A stretch of DNA of 35,796 bases from a virus, in the IMG/VR virus record IMGVR_UViG_3300045051_000105, positions 1 to 35,796 of that record. One strand, written 5' to 3'. Below the pieces are notes generated by a model, which saw only the letters and a program-made list of their open reading frames with translations, was not told the DNA's origin and ran no database searches. Shown here in pieces: positions 17,461 through 32,521 of the stretch; positions within the stretch are counted from its first letter, which is position 1; the number at the start of each line of letters is the position of its first letter. The position numbers were made by a program, and so were the translations under genes.

Positions 17461-17943
17461 ATGACAATCTGGGCAAGTATTAAAGGTTACGAAGGCTTAT
17501 ATGAAGTAAGCACATTAGGTGAAATAAAGAGTTTTCACAATGGCAAAGAAAAACTAATTAAATGCACTATTCATAAACAAAATGGATATGCTTATTTTCA
17601 ATTAGTTAAAAATGGTGAAAAGAAAACAATGAGATTACACAAAGTTGTAATGGTATCTTTTATTGGAGAAAGTAGTAAAATTATAAATCACAAGAATGGA
17701 GATAAAACCGACAATAGATTGGATAATCTTGAGTACATAAGTAGCAGAGAAAATTCATCACATTATTGGAAAGATTTAAAATTGCCAGGTATTTATTATA
17801 ACAAGAAAACAGATAAATATAGAGCAAGGATTTATCACAATGGTAAAAGTATTCATCTTGGATATTTTCAAACTAAATTATTAGCTTACATGAAAATAAA
17901 AGATTACGAATCAGAAAATAAAATAGAAAATAAGTATAGATAA
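17461..17943 (+). CDS. NUMOD4-HNH homing endonuclease with C-terminal AP2-like domain
   Basis: 160 aa. N-terminal NUMOD4 motif (IWASIKGYEGLYEVSTLGEIKSF), a central HNH nuclease (LHKVVMVSFIG, then IINHKNGDKTDNRLDNLEYISSREN), and an AP2-like DNA-binding part (GIYYNKKTDKYRARIYHNGKSIHLGYF). Such free-standing enzymes cut DNA lacking the element and spread by repair. It stands alone between two terminators, the only plus-strand gene in the convergence zone, which fits recent insertion. It is related in layout to the endonucleases at 22357 and 26681, but those end in a different domain. Confidence 0.9.
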   Translation: MTIWASIKGYEGLYEVSTLGEIKSFHNGKEKLIKCTIHKQNGYAYFQLVKNGEKKTMRLHKVVMVSFIGESSKIINHKNGDKTDNRLDNLEYISSRENSSHYWKDLKLPGIYYNKKTDKYRARIYHNGKSIHLGYFQTKLLAYMKIKDYESENKIENKYR

Positions 17944-18000: not shown

Positions 18001-19356
18001 TTAAAATCCAGGAGATACATATTTTGGGTTTGTTTCTAAAATCTTGCTCGTAGCAGTATCAATAAATAATTCTGCAGTTTTAGTTTCTCCTTGTCTATTC
18101 TTTAAAAATATGTATTCTATAATATTTGTAAATGTTACATTAGGGTCATTATTTTCCTTAGCCCTTTCGTAAGCATAATAATCTTCTCTATATAAACCAA
18201 TTACAACTGAAGCATCTTGTTCTAATTGTGATGTACTTCTTAAGTCTGATAATTTTGGTCTATTACTACCTCTACCTTCAACTTGTCTGTTTAGTTGTGC
18301 AGCACATAAAAATGGTATCTTTAACATTTTAGCGAGTTGTTGAATCTTTTTTGAAACAGAGCCAACTACTGCCGTTTCATCAGAACTTTTTATTTGATTA
18401 TCAGTGCATAATTGAATATAGTCAATTGCCACCATATCAATCTTTTCTTCTCTAACTATTCTTTGAATTAAAGAACTCAAATAATTTATATCACGATTAC
18501 TCCCATCATAAAACTTAATAGGTAAATTCTCTAATTCTGTAACTGCCTTTTTTTGTATCTCACTAAATTGCTCAATAGAAATTCTACCAGAATTTATTTT
18601 AGAATATGATAATCCAGAATCAAGTTGCCCACTTATCATTCTATAAATTAAAGATTCAACAGGCATTTCTAAAGATAAAAAAAGTACCTTTTTATTAAGT
18701 TGTGCAGCCCTTTTTGTATGCTCTAATAAACATATAGTTTTACCTTGACCTGGCCTTGCTGCAAATAAAATTACACCACCATTCATCCAACCACCTGTTA
18801 CATTATCAAGAATGTTATATCCAGTTGGTACTCCAGGAGTGCTACCATTAGTCATAACCTCACCAAGAGTATTAACTGCAATTGATAATGCCTTTTTTAT
18901 GTCTAAAACCTCATCGCCTATTGGCATATATGAATGAGAAGTTACATTATTTATTTTATCAACAATTGAGAAATAATCATGACCTGTTGCCAACGAATTA
19001 TTTACCTCACGAGTTAATGTTAATAAATCTCTCTTACCCTTTAGTTCAGCCAAATACAAGATAACCTCTTGAGCATTTAAAGGAGTTCTTGTTGTTGATG
19101 CCATCATTACATCTACCCAATCATTGCTTCCTTTTGATTTTAAGCGTATAATAATATCCGATTGAGTGAATGTACCTTTTTCGGAAAATAATTCAACACA
19201 AGTCAAATAAACGGCTTTAGTTGTACCAAAGTGAAATACATCTGGAGTAATAATCTTTTGGATGTCTTTGGTATAGCTTGGGTGATTCATTAAGAGAGCC
19301 AAGACTTCTCTTTCGGCATCTAAATCGGTAAATGCTACTTTATCTAATTGTTTCAT
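18001..19356 (-). CDS. dnaB: Replicative DNA helicase, DnaB family
   Basis: 451 aa, full length for the family. N-terminal domain about 8-110 (LDAEREVLALLMNHPSY, ITPDVFHFGTTKAVY); linker; RecA-like motor from about 165 (GVPTGYNILDNVTGGWMNGG). Walker A is A-R-P-G-Q-G-K-T at about 200-207; FLSLEMPVESL follows; Walker B is in DMVAIDYIQL; later CAAQLNRQVEGR and SDLRSTSQLEQDASVV are the usual DnaB motifs. It unwinds DNA at the phage fork. It is the last gene of the long minus operon, next to a likely loader, so the phage brings its own helicase but no polymerase or primase that I can see. Confidence 0.95.
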   Translation of the reverse strand: MKQLDKVAFTDLDAEREVLALLMNHPSYTKDIQKIITPDVFHFGTTKAVYLTCVELFSEKGTFTQSDIIIRLKSKGSNDWVDVMMASTTRTPLNAQEVILYLAELKGKRDLLTLTREVNNSLATGHDYFSIVDKINNVTSHSYMPIGDEVLDIKKALSIAVNTLGEVMTNGSTPGVPTGYNILDNVTGGWMNGGVILFAARPGQGKTICLLEHTKRAAQLNKKVLFLSLEMPVESLIYRMISGQLDSGLSYSKINSGRISIEQFSEIQKKAVTELENLPIKFYDGSNRDINYLSSLIQRIVREEKIDMVAIDYIQLCTDNQIKSSDETAVVGSVSKKIQQLAKMLKIPFLCAAQLNRQVEGRGSNRPKLSDLRSTSQLEQDASVVIGLYREDYYAYERAKENNDPNVTFTNIIEYIFLKNRQGETKTAELFIDTATSKILETNPKYVSPGF

Positions 19357-19371: not shown

Positions 19372-19848
19372 CTAAAACTTAAATGGGTTCACCACATTCG
19401 GTATATTAATACCTCTTGGCATATATCCTTCATCTTCCCAGGTGCGTTGATTAAGGTATGTAACGGGATGCTTTCTAAACTTAATATCTGGTGTTGATTT
19501 TAAATAGTGTGGCAAAGTTTCAAATATTTTCTCAATATCTTTCATTGGTAACTTTAAAAACTTTGTCTTTGCATCCTTTGTGCCAATCTTTTTATCATAA
19601 AGATTCCAAAACTTAATAAAAGCATCCTCTTTTTCATTTACCTCTTTGAGTATTTCTTGGGCACTCACTTTGGGTAATTGTGGCATTGCTAAAGGCTTAT
19701 CAATATGGTAAATTAAGTCCAATCCTTCGGTGCCAGATAACTTTGTTTCATTGAGAGAATCTAATAACTCTTGGTCTTTTATTGCGTAGTGAAACTTACT
19801 TAATAATTCTTGCAAGAAATCACCGAGTGCTAACTGTTTAGTTTTCAT
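19372..19848 (-). CDS. Replication protein, probable helicase loader
   Basis: 158 aa from the ATG at 19848; upstream ATGs at 19860 and 19902 are open but lie deeper in the previous gene, whereas 19848 gives the 11-base overlap (ATGAAAACTAA) seen elsewhere in this operon. The C-terminal part has F-I-K-F-W-N-L-Y-D-K-K-I-G with an 'AK.KFLKL...DIEKIFETLPHYL.STPD..FRKHPVTYLN.R.WEDEGY' pattern, which I know from replication and helicase-loader proteins of Bacteroidota phages and plasmids. Directly upstream of the DnaB gene, it probably loads the helicase. No ATPase motif is present, so it is not a DnaC-type AAA+ loader. Confidence 0.72.
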   Translation of the reverse strand: MKTKQLALGDFLQELLSKFHYAIKDQELLDSLNETKLSGTEGLDLIYHIDKPLAMPQLPKVSAQEILKEVNEKEDAFIKFWNLYDKKIGTKDAKTKFLKLPMKDIEKIFETLPHYLKSTPDIKFRKHPVTYLNQRTWEDEGYMPRGINIPNVVNPFKF

Positions 19849-20083
19849 TGTGTTGTTCATTATACCAATCTTTAAATTTCTTAATTCTAATAAATGATGC
19901 AAATTGCTCTCTATTCTTTGACATTTGCAACCTCATAATCCAAACTGCCAATGTTGTGTGAGAATTGTGAATTATACAATTGTCGAATGATTTAAAGTCA
20001 ATCATTGGCTCTTTTGTTTCTACAAAGTTTGTAGCCCAATCAATAGCCATTTGGAAGTATTCTTCTTGTTTCGATTGTTCCAT
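19838..20083 (-). CDS. Hypothetical small protein in replication operon
   Basis: 81 aa, unrecognised. Mixed helical: EEYFQMAIDWATNFVETKEP, then a segment with TTLAVWIMRLQMSKN and a basic end FIRIKKFKDWYN. It overlaps the preceding gene by 44 bases and the next by 11. Such deep overlap suggests a recent start shift or tight coupling. Confidence 0.65.
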   Translation of the reverse strand: MEQSKQEEYFQMAIDWATNFVETKEPMIDFKSFDNCIIHNSHTTLAVWIMRLQMSKNREQFASFIRIKKFKDWYNEQHNEN

Positions 20084-22356: not shown

Positions 22357-22872
22357 TTATAAATATTTTAGTGTTGTATTGTTTATCCTATTACCATTTA
22401 GCTGACTACATAAATTTTGATAATTTATATTTAAAAGAATTGATGCTTCTTTAGCTGAATTGTAAATTTTACTATTAGATAAATCTATAACTTTTTTATT
22501 CATTTGCATCCTTCTTTTTTCACTAAAAACTTTTACACCAATTAAAAATGCGTGTTTCATATTTTCGCTATTGGTTGCCCATTCAAGATTAGAATAATGG
22601 TTATCATGCTTAATTCCATTAATATGGTTTACCTGAGGTTTATTGCCAGGATTATTTATAAAATTTAATGCAACAAGCCTATGAACCGAAATAGTTTTCT
22701 TTTTTCTATTCTTTACAAAATAAGCAACTTTATATCCCTTATGATTTAAAGATTGATTCATTATAAATCCTTGCTTATACATTTTACAATTAAAAGATTT
22801 AACATTACCAAAATTGCTTATCTGATATAAACCTTCATATCCTTTGATGTCTTTATAAATTTCATTTTCCAT
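22357..22872 (-). CDS. NUMOD4-HNH homing endonuclease with NUMOD1-like end
   Basis: 171 aa. NUMOD4 (IYKDIKGYEGLYQISNFGNVKSF), HNH core (SVHRLVALNFINN, then VNHINGIKHDNHYSNLEWATNSEN), and a NUMOD1-like C-terminus (KVIDLSNSKIYNSAKEASILLN ... NTTLKYL). It is close to the endonuclease at 26681-27226, including the N-x-x-L-K-Y-L end. It sits inside the early operon between a small gene and the nuclease gene, with an ATG overlapping the upstream Y-G-K stop by 11 bases, so it fits the operon without disrupting translation. Confidence 0.9.
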   Translation of the reverse strand: MENEIYKDIKGYEGLYQISNFGNVKSFNCKMYKQGFIMNQSLNHKGYKVAYFVKNRKKKTISVHRLVALNFINNPGNKPQVNHINGIKHDNHYSNLEWATNSENMKHAFLIGVKVFSEKRRMQMNKKVIDLSNSKIYNSAKEASILLNINYQNLCSQLNGNRINNTTLKYL

Positions 22873-26586: not shown

Positions 26587-26684
26587 AGGTCGCAACATTT
26601 AAGTAGTATAATAATTGAGCAAATAGCTATAATCCAATATGCAATAGCTACAAATTTGTGATTGATTTCGTCTAATTCTTTCAT
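26583..26684 (-). CDS. 33-aa membrane protein
   Basis: M-K-E-L-D-E-I-N-H-K-F, membrane helix VAIAYWIIAICSIIILL, then K-C-C-D-L. Its start overlaps the HNH gene's stop as ATGA and its own stop overlaps the next ATG as ATGA, so it is fixed at both ends by coupling. Function unknown. Confidence 0.65.
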   Translation of the reverse strand: MKELDEINHKFVAIAYWIIAICSIIILLKCCDL

Positions 26685-27226
26685 AAGTATTTCAAATTAT
26701 ATTTATTAGCATTTCTACCTGTAATTTGGGCATGAAGTGTAATATATTTTACTCCAATTTTATTTGATGCTATTTTTAAAGAATCATAAATAATGCCAGT
26801 TTCTACACAAATTACCTTTTTGGAATTATTCACCTTATTGACTAAAAATGTATTCTTTTGATTTTCAGTATATCTTCTTAGTGAATTATCGTAAGCGTGC
26901 TTAATATTTTCACTTCTTGTTACCCATTCAAGGTTTATTAAGCTATTATCAGATTTTATGCCATTTTTATGATTAACATCTGATTTATTCTCTGGATTAT
27001 CTAAAAAATTGACACAAACTAATCTATGTACATTTTTAGCATATACTTTACTATCCTTACATAAATATACTGATTTATAGCCTTTTGGGTTTGTACTTTG
27101 TTTAAGCACTATATCCTGTTTATTTGTTATACCATTTTTATACTTCCTTGCTAATGATTTCACATTACCCATGTTGCTAACTTGGTATAACCCTTCGAAA
27201 CCTTCAATATCTTTCCAAATTTCCAT
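26681..27226 (-). CDS. NUMOD4-HNH homing endonuclease with NUMOD1-like end
   Basis: 181 aa from the ATG at 27226, where related proteins begin (M-E-I-W-K-D-I-E-G-F-E-G-L-Y); an ATG at 27247 adds seven residues. NUMOD4, then HNH core (NVHRLVCVNFLDN, VNHKNGIKSDNSLINLEWVTRSEN), then NUMOD1-like C-terminus ending N-L-K-Y-L. It is the closest relative of the endonuclease at 22357. Its TGA overlaps the next ATG, so it sits at the head of an operon without cutting it. Confidence 0.9.
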   Translation of the reverse strand: MEIWKDIEGFEGLYQVSNMGNVKSLARKYKNGITNKQDIVLKQSTNPKGYKSVYLCKDSKVYAKNVHRLVCVNFLDNPENKSDVNHKNGIKSDNSLINLEWVTRSENIKHAYDNSLRRYTENQKNTFLVNKVNNSKKVICVETGIIYDSLKIASNKIGVKYITLHAQITGRNANKYNLKYL

Positions 27227-27290
27227 AGCTAAAATATTTATTTTCAAAAAAGTGCCTAAATTTTAATTTCCAGAAAAATAATTTTAAAAT

Positions 27291-27350: not shown

Positions 27351-27554
27351 CTAATCTTTTTTCTTTGGTAAAAGTGGTTCTTTTTCCATTAAATAAACTT
27401 CTACAAAATGTCTAAATAATCCAGCCCAATGGTTTCCAAATCGAGAATCAGCTTCTTTCTTTAATTCTGTTGGAATTCTTACGGAAACAACCGAAGTTGG
27501 GATGCCATGCGGTCTGCCTGCCTTTTTCTTGTTAGTTATTGTTTTATCTTTCAT
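27351..27554 (-). CDS. Ribbon-helix-helix DNA-binding regulator candidate
   Basis: 67 aa. K-A-G-R-P-H-G-I-P then SVVSVRIPTELKKEADSRFG followed by AGLFRHFVEVYLMEKEP. The short strand VVSVRIP followed by two helices is the ribbon-helix-helix (Arc/MetJ/CopG) plan, in which the strand enters the DNA major groove. It has its own promoter match at 27583-27613 and a hairpin after it, so it is a single-gene unit, as expected of a phage regulator. It may bind the operator-like palindromes reported here; this is inference. Confidence 0.78.
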   Translation of the reverse strand: MKDKTITNKKKAGRPHGIPTSVVSVRIPTELKKEADSRFGNHWAGLFRHFVEVYLMEKEPLLPKKKD

Positions 27555-27619: not shown

Positions 27620-27892
27620 TTAAAATAATATTTTATAAATTAAAATTGAGATAATTAAATTTAGTCCAACTATAATCCATAAAAGGATTCCGACCAATTT
27701 TAGAATTTTTTCCGAAAAATTCCTGGGACTATCAGCTTTTTTACCCAAATGCCAATGGGTGAGTTTTCCCACTTTTTCTCCACTCCAAAGTAGCTTATTT
27801 ATAATTGTTCTAAATAGTGTGGGTTTGGGTTTTGGGAATTGAATAAAACCTATTAGTTCATAGTCTTTTTGTGTTTCTTGCTTTGCGTTCAT
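27620..27892 (-). CDS. Small C-terminally anchored membrane protein
   Basis: 90 aa. A soluble N-terminal part with P-K-P-K-P and WHLGKKADSPRN, then a long hydrophobic end (LKLVGILLWIIVGLNLIISILIYKILF), one long or two short membrane passes. Unrecognised. It is separated from the genes at 28237 onward by a hairpin-rich gap and from the regulator by that gene's promoter. Confidence 0.68.
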   Translation of the reverse strand: MNAKQETQKDYELIGFIQFPKPKPTLFRTIINKLLWSGEKVGKLTHWHLGKKADSPRNFSEKILKLVGILLWIIVGLNLIISILIYKILF

Positions 27893-28203
27893 ATTCTTTT
27901 TGTTTAGTATTCAATTTAAGGCACTATATTTTGCATTTAAGCTACTCAAATGGTAGTGGTAATATGTTTGTATGTTTTGACCTACAAAAGTCGCTTAAAA
28001 TCAATTTATTAAAGTTTTAAGTCAATAGGATATTCCAGGCTATTAATAAGCCCTAATAAATACCCTTGTATTTGCCCTTTCTTTTGCCTTGTATCGCTTC
28101 CAATTGCTTCGCTTAATACATTGGTAAGGCTTTAAATAAATAAAGCCCTAAAAAGGGCTATAAATAAGAAAAGCCCAAAAATGGCTAATTAATTAATAGT
28201 CTA
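27893..28203. other. Hairpin-rich gap without genes
   Basis: I see no coding region on either strand. It contains several short inverted repeats built from AAGCCC/GGGCTT: GGCTATTAATAAGCC (28038-28052), GGCTTT...AAAGCC (28128-28147), AGCCCTAAAAAGGGCT (28144-28159) and AAGCCCAAAAATGGCT (from about 28171). The AAAGCCC at 28142-28148 can pair either with the upstream or downstream partner, so two structures exclude one another. Confidence 0.6.
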
Positions 28204-29608: not shown

Positions 29609-29638
29609 TAAAGGTAATACTTGTAAACATAAATACAA
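29609..29638 (-). promoter_or_regulatory. First early promoter (minus strand)
   Basis: On the minus strand TTG (29638-29636), 19 bases, then TACCTTTA (29616-29609), one mismatch from TAnnTTTG. It would start transcription near 29602, 27 bases before the first ATG, at the edge of the intergenic control region. Confidence 0.65.
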
Positions 29639-29764
29639 TAGGTCAAACAAATTATTTTTAAAAAAGTATGAAATTTAGAATCATTCTAAATAAGCATACC
29701 TATAAAAATACGTCGCTTAAACTATTGCATAATTAAAATATTTCCATTTTTTACCAATTACAAT

Positions 29765-29830
29765 TTATTACACTATTAGTATACTATTTATTATACTATT
29801 AAGTATTCTATTAAGTATTCTAATAAGTGT
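29765..29830 (+). repeat. Iteron-like 12-bp tandem repeats, left cluster
   Basis: Five units in a row: ACTATTAGTAT, ACTATTTATTAT, ACTATTAAGTAT, TCTATTAAGTAT and TCTAATAAGTGT (29772-29830), one of 11 and four of 12 bases, consensus ACTATTAAGTAT, preceded by TTATTACACTAT overlapping the first. Units are about one DNA turn apart, as in binding arrays for an initiator or repressor. Confidence 0.75.
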
Positions 29831-30271
29831 AAAAAAAAAGTATCATAAGGGAGTATAATTCTTTTTCTTTGCCTACTTTCTTTTTCTTATTTAGAACCTA
29901 TTCATTTTGCACACAATATTGAGTAGTAAACCAGGTTATTTAACCGAAACAATAGAACACTAAACATATTGATTTTAAGCCCTTATTTATCCTTTGTTAA
30001 GGTCTTTGTACTTGCATACCTATTTGAGTTTATTAGGTGTAATGTATGGGGCTTTATATGGTGTGCTATATGGTGGTTATATGTTCATATCTTAATTGAT
30101 ATAATTACCCTATTGCAAGGGCTTTTTTTATCCAATATCAATACCCTGTTTAATCAAGGCTAAAAGGGAATTACCCAGGTGGGTTACCCTCCGACTACCA
30201 TCTGTTGAATTGGTGTACCCTATTACTACCTACGTTACCCTACCCTTACAGGTGTGTTATTGTGTGTTTCT

Positions 30272-30347
30272 GGGGTGTATTTGGGGCAAAGAGGGGTGTA
30301 CCCCGAAAAGGTGGGGAGCAAAAGGGGGTGGGTAGGTCTGGTCGGGG
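30272..30347 (+). other. G-tract region with quadruplex potential
   Basis: Plus-strand G runs of 4, 4, 4, 4, 5, 3 and 4 at 30272, 30283, 30293, 30313, 30324, 30330 and 30344. Loops between the first four runs are 7, 6 and 16 bases. The surrounding genome is very poor in G runs. The palindromic GGGGTGTACCCC (30293-30304) overlaps the third run and could compete as a hairpin. Confidence 0.6.
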
Positions 30348-30407
30348 TACCCAACAAAAAAAACCTAAAACTTTTTGGGTAATAGATGTAAACACTCGTG
30401 ATAAAAA

Positions 30408-30494
30408 ATGGAGAAAAACAAAGAGTTTAGATTGATTATAAATAAGAAGTGTTATGTTTGTGGTGTAAACACTATTAAGATTGAGTCTAAATAA
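30408..30494 (+). CDS. Possible 28-aa CxxC peptide or gene remnant
   Basis: M-E-K-N-K-E-F-R-L-I-I-N-K-K-C-Y-V-C-G-V-N-T-I-K-I-E-S-K then TAA. The C-Y-V-C-G is half of a zinc-binding motif usual at the start of HNH or nuclease-like proteins, so it may be the broken start of one. No other support. Confidence 0.25.
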   Translation: MEKNKEFRLIINKKCYVCGVNTIKIESK

Positions 30495-30560
30495 GGCAAA
30501 AATCGGGTTAAACTCATGGATAAAGTCTTGGTTATTAAGTAGTTAGGTATTATTTAGATT

Positions 30561-30578
30561 GTTTCCAAATAAGGAAAC
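30561..30578. repeat. Perfect palindrome in the control region
   Basis: GTTTCC-AAATAA-GGAAAC, six-base arms. It stands 155 bases before the first late gene and next to the right repeat cluster. It is suited to be an operator for a dimeric protein. Confidence 0.5.
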
Positions 30579-30590
30579 ATATATATTATA

Positions 30591-30638
30591 TTATTATACT
30601 CTTTATTATACTATTGGTGTAATGATATAGTGTAATAA
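30591..30638 (+). repeat. Iteron-like repeats, right cluster
   Basis: TTATTATACT occurs at 30591-30600 and 30603-30612, 12 bases apart. TTTATTATACTATT (30602-30615) is identical to 29787-29800 in the left cluster. ATAGTGTAATAA (30627-30638) is the reverse complement of TTATTACACTAT at 29765-29776. Confidence 0.7.
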
Positions 30639-30732
30639 GTTTTCGGTTAGCCAATTTTGAAAAAGAAAGTAAAAATCAATTCCACATAAAAAAAATATAA
30701 ATCCAATTTGAAACGATTAAACAACTACACTT

Positions 30733-31215
30733 ATGAGTGAAGAAAAAAAGAGAGTGGCTCATCCAAATAGCATTAAGAACTTAAAGCCTATTCAAAAAGG
30801 CGAGGTTCGTAATCCTAATGGTAGGCCAAAGAGTATGATTAGGAAAGTCATTGAGGAAGCTGGTGATATTCTTGATGTCAAACTTAGTAGGCACGATGTA
30901 ATGAGTGTTACTGCTTTGGTGCAATCAATGACAGTTAGTGAAATTAAAAGAGTAGCAAGTGATTCTCAAACCCCTGGTTTCATTGCCGTAGTAGCAAATG
31001 CCATCTTAGGTGATATTAAGAATGGTGAAATGAAGAATACCCAATTTATGTTGGAGTTTCAACATGGAAAGGCATTACAAGCTATTCAAATGGAAAAGGT
31101 AGTTAGAGAAGATATTATAGACCCAAGACAATTAAGCGATGAAGAAATTAGACAAAGACTTTCAGAATTACGAAATAGAGATATTGAGGAGAGAGATTTC
31201 GAGGAGGTCGTTTGA
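30733..31215 (+). CDS. terS: Terminase small subunit
   Basis: 160 aa. N-terminal 'PIQKGEVRNPNGRPKSM' is the K-G..NPNGRPK signature (DUF5681-type) common in Bacteroidota and proteobacterial phage small terminases; helical DNA-binding and oligomer segments follow (RKVIEEAGDILDVKLS, SVTALVQSMTVSEIKRVAS), and an acidic C-terminus (NRDIEERDFEEV) probably contacts the large subunit. It recognises phage DNA for packaging. First gene of the late block; it overlaps the large subunit gene by 77 bases. Confidence 0.85.
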   Translation: MSEEKKRVAHPNSIKNLKPIQKGEVRNPNGRPKSMIRKVIEEAGDILDVKLSRHDVMSVTALVQSMTVSEIKRVASDSQTPGFIAVVANAILGDIKNGEMKNTQFMLEFQHGKALQAIQMEKVVREDIIDPRQLSDEEIRQRLSELRNRDIEERDFEEVV

Positions 31216-32521
31216 TAACTTTGTTAAGTACATCAAGCCCGACTATGATATGCAATGGTTTCATAAAGTTATATGCGACCACTTGGATAAGGTTCTTAAT
31301 GGTGAGATAAAGAAGCTAATGATATTTGTGCCTCCTCAACACGGAAAGTCCGAATTATCTACTCGTAGTTTCCCGACTTATGCACTTGGGAAGAAGCCTA
31401 ACTTAAAGATTGCTCTTGCATCTTATAACGCAACCCTTGCCGAACAATTTAGTGCCGAAATACAAAGAAGGATTACAAGTGATGAGTATAAAATACTTTT
31501 CCCCGATACACGCATTAGTGAAAAGAAGGGTGAAGCTATTCGAACTGCCGAGTTCTTTCAAGTTGTTGGTAGTGGAGGCTATTTAAAAGCCGTTGGTCGT
31601 GGTGGTTCATTAACTGGAACTGCCGTTGATTTAGGTATTATTGACGACCCCTTAAAAGACCGACAAGAGGCTCAATCTAACATTATCAAGGAGCAATTGT
31701 GGAATTGGTACACCGATGTGTTCGAAACTCGCTTACATAACGATTCTGCACAAATTATTATTCAAACTCGGTGGTATGATGATGACTTAGCAGGTCGTTT
31801 GCTTGAAAGAGATGATGATTGGACAATCATTGAGTTTCCTGCTTTAAGAGAAAGAGCCGAGAATAATTACGACCCAAGAAAAGAAGGTGAGGCTTTATGG
31901 GAGGCAAAGCATAGTGCCGAGAAGCTATTAAGGGTTAAAAAGAACGAACCTTTTACTTTTGAATCACTTTATCAACAAAACCCTAAACCAAGTAGTGAAT
32001 CTTTGATTTACCACGATTGGCAAGTGTGTGAGTTTTTCCCGAAGGATGCCGAGGTTGTCTTTAGTGGACTTGACTTTGGATTCTCTAATGACCCGACTGC
32101 TTTGATAAGAATTGCTAAAATTGGTAATAAGTTGTACCTTGACGAAGTAATTTACGATAAAGGATTAACTAATTCCGATTTGGTCAAAAGGATTGAAATG
32201 TACCCCGATAAGTATGGGGAGATTTATGCCGATAGTGCCGACCCTAAATCAATTGAGGAATTAAGGCGAGCTGGGGTCAAAGTTCTTAAAGCAGTAAAAG
32301 GGAACGATTCCGTTAATGCTGGTATTAGTAAATTGCGAGAGTATGAGGTGTATTATACTCGTAGGTCAAAGAATATCAAGAAAGAAGTGGATAATTATCA
32401 ATGGCTAACGGTTGGTGGTAAACCAATCAACAAGCCGATAGATGACTTTAACCACGCACTTGATGCTATTCGATATGCGATTTATACGAAGTATTCTAAA
32501 AAGAAACTTTTAATTTTTTAA
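31139..32521 (+). CDS. terL: Terminase large subunit
   Basis: 460 aa. Packaging motor: ATPase plus nuclease. Walker A P-P-Q-H-G-K-S at 65-71, Walker B V-D-L-G-I-I-D-D at 163-170, then the RNase H-like nuclease with Asp in GLDFGFSNDPTALIRI, a second acidic site in YADSADPKSIEELRRAG and a third in NHALDAIRYAIY. The ATG at 31139 gives a deep overlap with the small subunit gene; a TTG at 31184 would reduce it but would cut a likely helix. Packaging type (cos or headful) cannot be told from sequence alone. Confidence 0.95.
   Translation: MKKLDKDFQNYEIEILRREISRRSFDNFVKYIKPDYDMQWFHKVICDHLDKVLNGEIKKLMIFVPPQHGKSELSTRSFPTYALGKKPNLKIALASYNATLAEQFSAEIQRRITSDEYKILFPDTRISEKKGEAIRTAEFFQVVGSGGYLKAVGRGGSLTGTAVDLGIIDDPLKDRQEAQSNIIKEQLWNWYTDVFETRLHNDSAQIIIQTRWYDDDLAGRLLERDDDWTIIEFPALRERAENNYDPRKEGEALWEAKHSAEKLLRVKKNEPFTFESLYQQNPKPSSESLIYHDWQVCEFFPKDAEVVFSGLDFGFSNDPTALIRIAKIGNKLYLDEVIYDKGLTNSDLVKRIEMYPDKYGEIYADSADPKSIEELRRAGVKVLKAVKGNDSVNAGISKLREYEVYYTRRSKNIKKEVDNYQWLTVGGKPINKPIDDFNHALDAIRYAIYTKYSKKKLLIF

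Follow-up and report, generated by a model that had tools for sequence, protein, structure and literature searches.

Which proteins read the short repeats that border the divergent control region of this phage, and do those repeats serve transcription, replication or packaging? The window, by which we mean the whole 35,796-base stretch analysed (an IMG/VR virus record), looks complete and circular, because its two ends share about 24 bases (GAGAACTTCATGGCTAAGGCTTTC). Leftward early genes, running from ~29.6 kb to 18 kb, encode a DnaB-like helicase, a replication protein, a PDDEXK exonuclease, RusA and an RHH-type protein, while rightward late genes (terminase, head, tail) start at 30,733. Between the two sets lies 1.08 kb of non-coding DNA, which is conserved and is the single divergent early/late control region of this ~35.8-kb phage; it holds both the repeat arrays and a set of palindromes. 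The control region had no match to named phages by nucleotide similarity, and Rfam and tRNA searches found nothing. The genes that matter for what follows are:

18001-19356, minus strand: DnaB-like replicative helicase
19372-19902, minus strand: replication protein whose C-terminal half is related to phage replication initiation proteins (phrog_270)
30733-31215, plus strand: small-terminase candidate, first gene of the late operon, with weak DUF5681 similarity; it precedes the terminase large subunit
31139-32521, plus strand: terminase large subunit

Elsewhere in the window, three HNH endonuclease-like ORFs (17461-17943, 22357-22872 and 26681-27247) cross-matched the same loci in tblastn, and a 28-bp tandem repeat (GGCTATAAATAAAAAAAGCCC) at 28128-28187 is terminator-like.

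Two repeat clusters had been described here in an earlier note, and both are real: a ~12-bp unit (ATTAYACTAWTW) makes up an array at each edge of the control region.

29759-29840, unoriented: left 12-bp array, with units at 29767-29778 (+), 29778-29789 (+) and 29790-29801 (+), two degenerate units, and one at 29822-29833 (-)
30585-30639, unoriented: right 12-bp array, with units at 30593-30604 (+), 30605-30616 (+), 30612-30623 (-) and 30625-30636 (-)

Tandem Repeats Finder reported 5.4 copies of a 12-bp unit with 81% matches at 29759-29828, in agreement with the tandem 11-12 bp units claimed for the left cluster; the same array can also be read as a 24-bp repeat, whose score of 84 is the highest in the window. 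The right cluster had been called direct repeats, which holds for two units at 12-bp spacing (30590-30615) but not for the array as a whole, whose orientation is mixed (+ + - -); the left array is mixed too (+ + +, two degenerate, -). The 14-base word said to be shared by the clusters, TTTATTATACTATT, has exactly two copies in the window, at 29787-29800 and 30602-30615, and nine matches with up to two mismatches against 2.9 expected (nine was reached in 1 of 100 shuffles). The inverted 12-base copy is also present, within AATTTATTACACTAT at 29762-29776 and ATAGTGTAATAAGTT at 30627-30641, which are 93% complementary. A pyrimidine-rich tract at 29859-29890, to the right of the left array, is retained in several distant relatives and missing from others.

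Related phages carry the arrays as well, whereas the earlier note had named absence from close relatives as a refutation. A motif derived solely from the right arrays of 12 relatives was scanned over the left regions; an earlier search by unconstrained EM had drifted to base composition and was discarded. At positions 29700-29900 of the window the right-array motif had three matches, against 0.27 in shuffles (P 0.0005), and it had none in the 660 bp that separate the arrays. The left regions of 10 of the 12 relatives passed at P<0.01, the failures being L033 and L036, the two with the most diverged RHH protein. Among relatives the number and orientation of units vary and the core TTAYACTA is retained; the sequence of the left array turns over, and the right array keeps its position. 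In the left arrays of eight relatives we also saw small inverted repeats in which pairing is kept and the sequence differs (CTTTCTAAGAAAG, CATTCTTTAGAATG, CTATCTTAAGATAG). The helical spacing, the persistence of the motif despite turnover of the left array, and the conserved place of the right array together make it well supported, at the level of sequence, that the 12-bp arrays are multi-unit protein-binding sites. Thus, of the earlier suggestion of a binding array for an initiator or regulator, the array itself stands, whereas the role as origin is a candidate reading.

The earlier note looked for the binder among small unassigned proteins, which is plausible: one such protein is encoded in every relative.

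27351-27554, minus strand: RHH-type DNA-binding protein with an invariant AT-hook-like KKAGRP, candidate array binder, present in 12/12 relatives

Its strand motif SVR(I/V) and the KKAGRP are conserved among relatives, and an extended stretch is followed by two predicted helices, as in RHH proteins. Sequence and fold comparisons with known RHH proteins gave weak matches or none: the best family match, a weak one, is to an RHH antitoxin, and a fold search with a model of low confidence returned no match. The RHH operator arrays of Arc, CopG and omega likewise consist of short sites spaced about one turn apart and read by a small RHH protein; in contrast to those, the unit here is only partly palindromic and binding is predicted. 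Reading the upstream regions of the RHH gene by eye, we noticed no 12-bp array at its promoter. We consider the conserved RHH protein the best candidate and the most likely array binder; it would bind the 12-bp arrays and act on the divergent transcription units. We infer both binder and function with much less certainty than the Fur-box reading developed below.

A close rival to the RHH protein, which we hold to be possible with the odds against it, is that the arrays are iterons and the control region the origin: an initiator would bind the 12-bp units and open the AT-rich DNA, onto which it would load the DnaB-like helicase. The arrays do consist of conserved units in tandem, spaced by about one helical turn. 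Iteron origins such as lambda oriO and P4 ori/crr consist of short tandem units about one helical turn long, in P4 at two places, as here; they differ from the arrays in that the units here lie in both orientations and no initiator was found. The GC skew, named as a check in the earlier note, changes sign in the control region, but gene direction switches there too and the skew follows it. A search across all viral contigs for TTACACTA-type units, three in a row and 11-12 bp apart, gave 20 matches, against four for the reversed pattern; three come from this phage family, and 10 fall within the Ser-Asp-Ser-Val linker of a gene of replication type, several of them adjoining a DnaB-like helicase (the one protein checked is DUF6291). 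In such serine-rich linkers (DUF6291-type genes, L191-L232), AGT encodes 137 of 150 serines, compared with 60 of 469 in the rest of those genes; an origin located within the initiator gene, as in lambda O, would be expected to leave such a bias. However, the word common to linkers and arrays was imposed by the search itself, and the codon bias could stem from repeat expansion. None of the window phage's conserved early proteins is DUF6291-like (hhalign probability <3%), so that such an initiator was rejected for this phage and the DUF6291 link is suggestive only. Nor does the window's replication protein show a known DNA-binding domain, only the C-terminal replication domain being found, and no tandem array of the 12-bp motif was found in the replication genes of the window. 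The DUF6291-type linkers themselves often hold 12-bp repeats (TAGTGTAAGTGA) and are possible in-gene origins of Bacteroidota phages.

Improbable, in our judgement, is a role of the arrays as part of a pac site bound by the small terminase. A pac site is usually located just before the small-terminase gene, and 93 bp separate the end of the right array from the small-terminase candidate; the left array, however, is ~900 bp away. Contig ends of relatives overlap by tens of bases, so their genomes look circular or permuted. Of 28 contig ends (in L003-L039) located up to 5 kb upstream of the terminase gene, 15 are within the first 1 kb, several of them near the left array, but contig ends are scattered and could reflect breaks in the assembly at variable repeats. 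A fixed cos end was rejected, as the contig cut points differ and the ends overlap.

Beyond the arrays, the control region contains four 21-bp palindromes with the core TTAGAATNATTCTAA, at 29674, 30426, 30475 and 30553, which the earlier note had missed along with the predicted late promoter. We list them with the predicted promoters around which they lie:

29609-29638, minus strand: predicted early promoter, leftward, in which a 19-bp spacer separates TTG (complement of 29636-29638) from TACCTTTA (complement of 29609-29616)
29674-29694, unoriented: Fur-like palindrome TTTAGAATCATTCTAAATAAG, upstream of the leftward promoter, with the same core as the Riemerella Fur box ATTTAGAATTATTCTAAAT
30426-30446, unoriented: Fur-like box 1, TTTAGATTGATTATAAATAAG, which overlaps the late, rightward promoter at its -33 element and spacer
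30432-30460, plus strand: predicted late promoter, TTG at 30432-30434, 18-bp spacer, TATGTTTG at 30453-30460
30475-30495, unoriented: Fur-like box 2, TTAAGATTGAGTCTAAATAAG, shortly after the point where late transcription is predicted to start
30553-30573, unoriented: Fur-like box 3, TTTAGATTGTTTCCAAATAAG, ~12 bp ahead of the right array
27799-27813, unoriented: a further palindrome with one core mismatch, inside a small ORF upstream of the RHH gene

The core is identical to the Fur box of the flavobacterium Riemerella anatipestifer, a predicted consensus for which four promoters were EMSA-tested with purified Fur; the protein bound selected promoters (PMC5609570). In a 7-1-7 Fur-box test the core at 29674 was exact and the other three control-region boxes had one or two mismatches. 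For the late promoter, the -7 consensus of Flavobacterium psychrophilum, TAnnTTTG at -12 to -5 (PMC9723704), served as reference. All relatives examined have a TANNTTTG -7 element there, some -270 to -290 relative to the small-terminase gene, and three relatives (L004, L009 and L012) have TTG-N19-TATNTTTG at the place of the early promoter. Box 1 covers the TTG and spacer of TTG-N18-TATGTTTG, and box 2 starts 15 bp past the -7 element. The word TGTAAACA occurs only three times in the window (29622, 30387 and 30464), always in the control region beside promoters, and was seen again near the RHH promoter in several relatives.

The palindromes are concentrated here far beyond chance: the window has five, against an average of 0.11 in shuffles, and across 13 family genomes there are 59 sites in 15.9 kb of control region compared with 15 in 440 kb elsewhere, a ~109-fold difference in density, several of the 15 being one site upstream of the RHH gene or lying outside only through a contig cut. 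The palindrome at 27799-27813 is conserved in several relatives, possibly through coding constraint. Boxes 2 and 3 have a match at the same place in 13/13 genomes; box 1 is held at its place in 6/13, the closest relatives, and in distant relatives it is absent from the -33 position while boxes 2 and 3 remain. Fur-regulated promoters of Flavobacteriia likewise combine the palindrome ATTTAGAATNATTCTAAAT with a TAnnTTTG -7 element (Riemerella anatipestifer, PMC5609570), but the phage boxes stand several to a control region and at a late (structural) operon rather than at iron-uptake genes. Host-type Fur-like boxes, one overlapping the predicted late promoter, are to us the most surprising part of this region.

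The box is not confined to this family. In viral contigs its 24-bp form had at least 120 matches, against none for the reversed control. Among the matches listed, 73 of 74 distinct sites lie outside predicted genes, 50 between tandem genes and nine between divergent ones; since none of the 74 lies between convergent genes, we rejected a reading of the palindrome as a terminator. Measured from the box centre in 82 oriented fragments, the -7 element starts at +23/24 in 16, at +17 in five and at +26 in three, and it is rarely found on the opposite strand. Among the genes downstream, whose leaders are short, are those for a major head protein, a portal protein and a protein resembling a tail fibre, and in 13 other box-bearing phages most sites with up to two mismatches are intergenic.

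Such phages might be thought to read the box themselves, as the operator of a phage-encoded late regulator that resembles a Fur box by convergence: the 24-bp form has more matches among viral contigs than among bacterial genomes, and in unrelated phages it keeps a preferred distance from the late promoters at which it stands. We regard this as unlikely. Among 15 conserved proteins of the window's family, the terminase large subunit alone was found in more than one of the 13 other box-bearing phages, the RHH protein is found in 0/27 other carriers, and chromosomal copies of the box sit at iron genes. The RHH protein was rejected as palindrome binder on that 0/27 count, for which the records searched held no positive control. 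A phage-encoded Fur was rejected too, no Fur gene being found in 39 box-bearing records or in 12 relatives. With no Fur gene in those 39 records and no shared conserved protein except terminase, a host protein would therefore be the simplest reader of the box.

In Flavobacteriales and their relatives, the same core lies on the chromosome upstream of feoAB, of fecA-like and other TonB siderophore receptors, of IscA/SufA and of the fur gene, and it also precedes a Dps/ferritin-like gene and a diaminobutyrate decarboxylase similar to RhbB (siderophore). The motif thus marks iron genes in the likely host clade, Bacteroidota. Chromosomes seldom carry the 24-bp form (a 257-Gb collection has 50 stretches, several of them prophages or unrelated repeats), and 61 Flavobacterium genomes have only 0-5 core matches each (the reversed control being almost absent); the phage sites may therefore exceed ordinary Fur boxes in length or strength, or another protein may read them. 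Where a -7 element was recognised on chromosomes, it mostly lies 12-18 bp from the box, compared with mostly 17-26 in phages. Two kinds of chromosomal locus stood apart. Twelve loci of the Dysgonamonadaceae MAG Nc350_bin116 are rich in the palindrome, most copies being 200-500 bp away from genes, and resemble a repeat family more than a regulon; two loci each in Flavobacterium sp. 1355 and CROMO_A_120 are prophage-like structural clusters with a perfect box at the operon start.

Taking arrays and palindromes together, we favour, at a probability of roughly 55%, a joint reading in which the late promoter is under the control of host Fur and a phage regulator, most likely the RHH protein, binds the arrays. 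The four 21-bp palindromes would be Fur boxes read by the host's Fur-family iron regulator; we infer Fur binding, and whether it represses or activates, from their placement. As one box lies on the -33 element and spacer and another just past the predicted start, late transcription would be blocked while Fur is loaded with iron, and would be released when iron runs low or when replicating phage DNA titrates Fur. That unrelated Bacteroidota phages share the arrangement, with a host Fur box at a preferred promoter distance, iron-gated late expression and perhaps titration of Fur by DNA replication, seems to us a little short of an even bet.

The nearest precedent we found for Fur control in a phage is that reported for Shiga toxin production in E. 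coli O157 (PMC5552940). There too, host Fur acts on a phage-borne gene; that gene is a toxin gene of a lambdoid prophage, whereas here the target would be a late operon promoter, family-wide and in unrelated phages. The literature searched, which leaves out most subscription papers, held no report of Fur boxes at phage structural promoters.

For this phage family, the 12-bp arrays are a marker of the control region. If the Fur reading is true, the timing of lysis in many Bacteroidota phages, which are abundant in water and gut, would be tied to iron, and nutrient state and phage production would be joined by a testable link, in that an iron chelator or deletion of fur would alter late transcription. 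The box would then also be a sequence signature for locating late promoters in uncultured phages.
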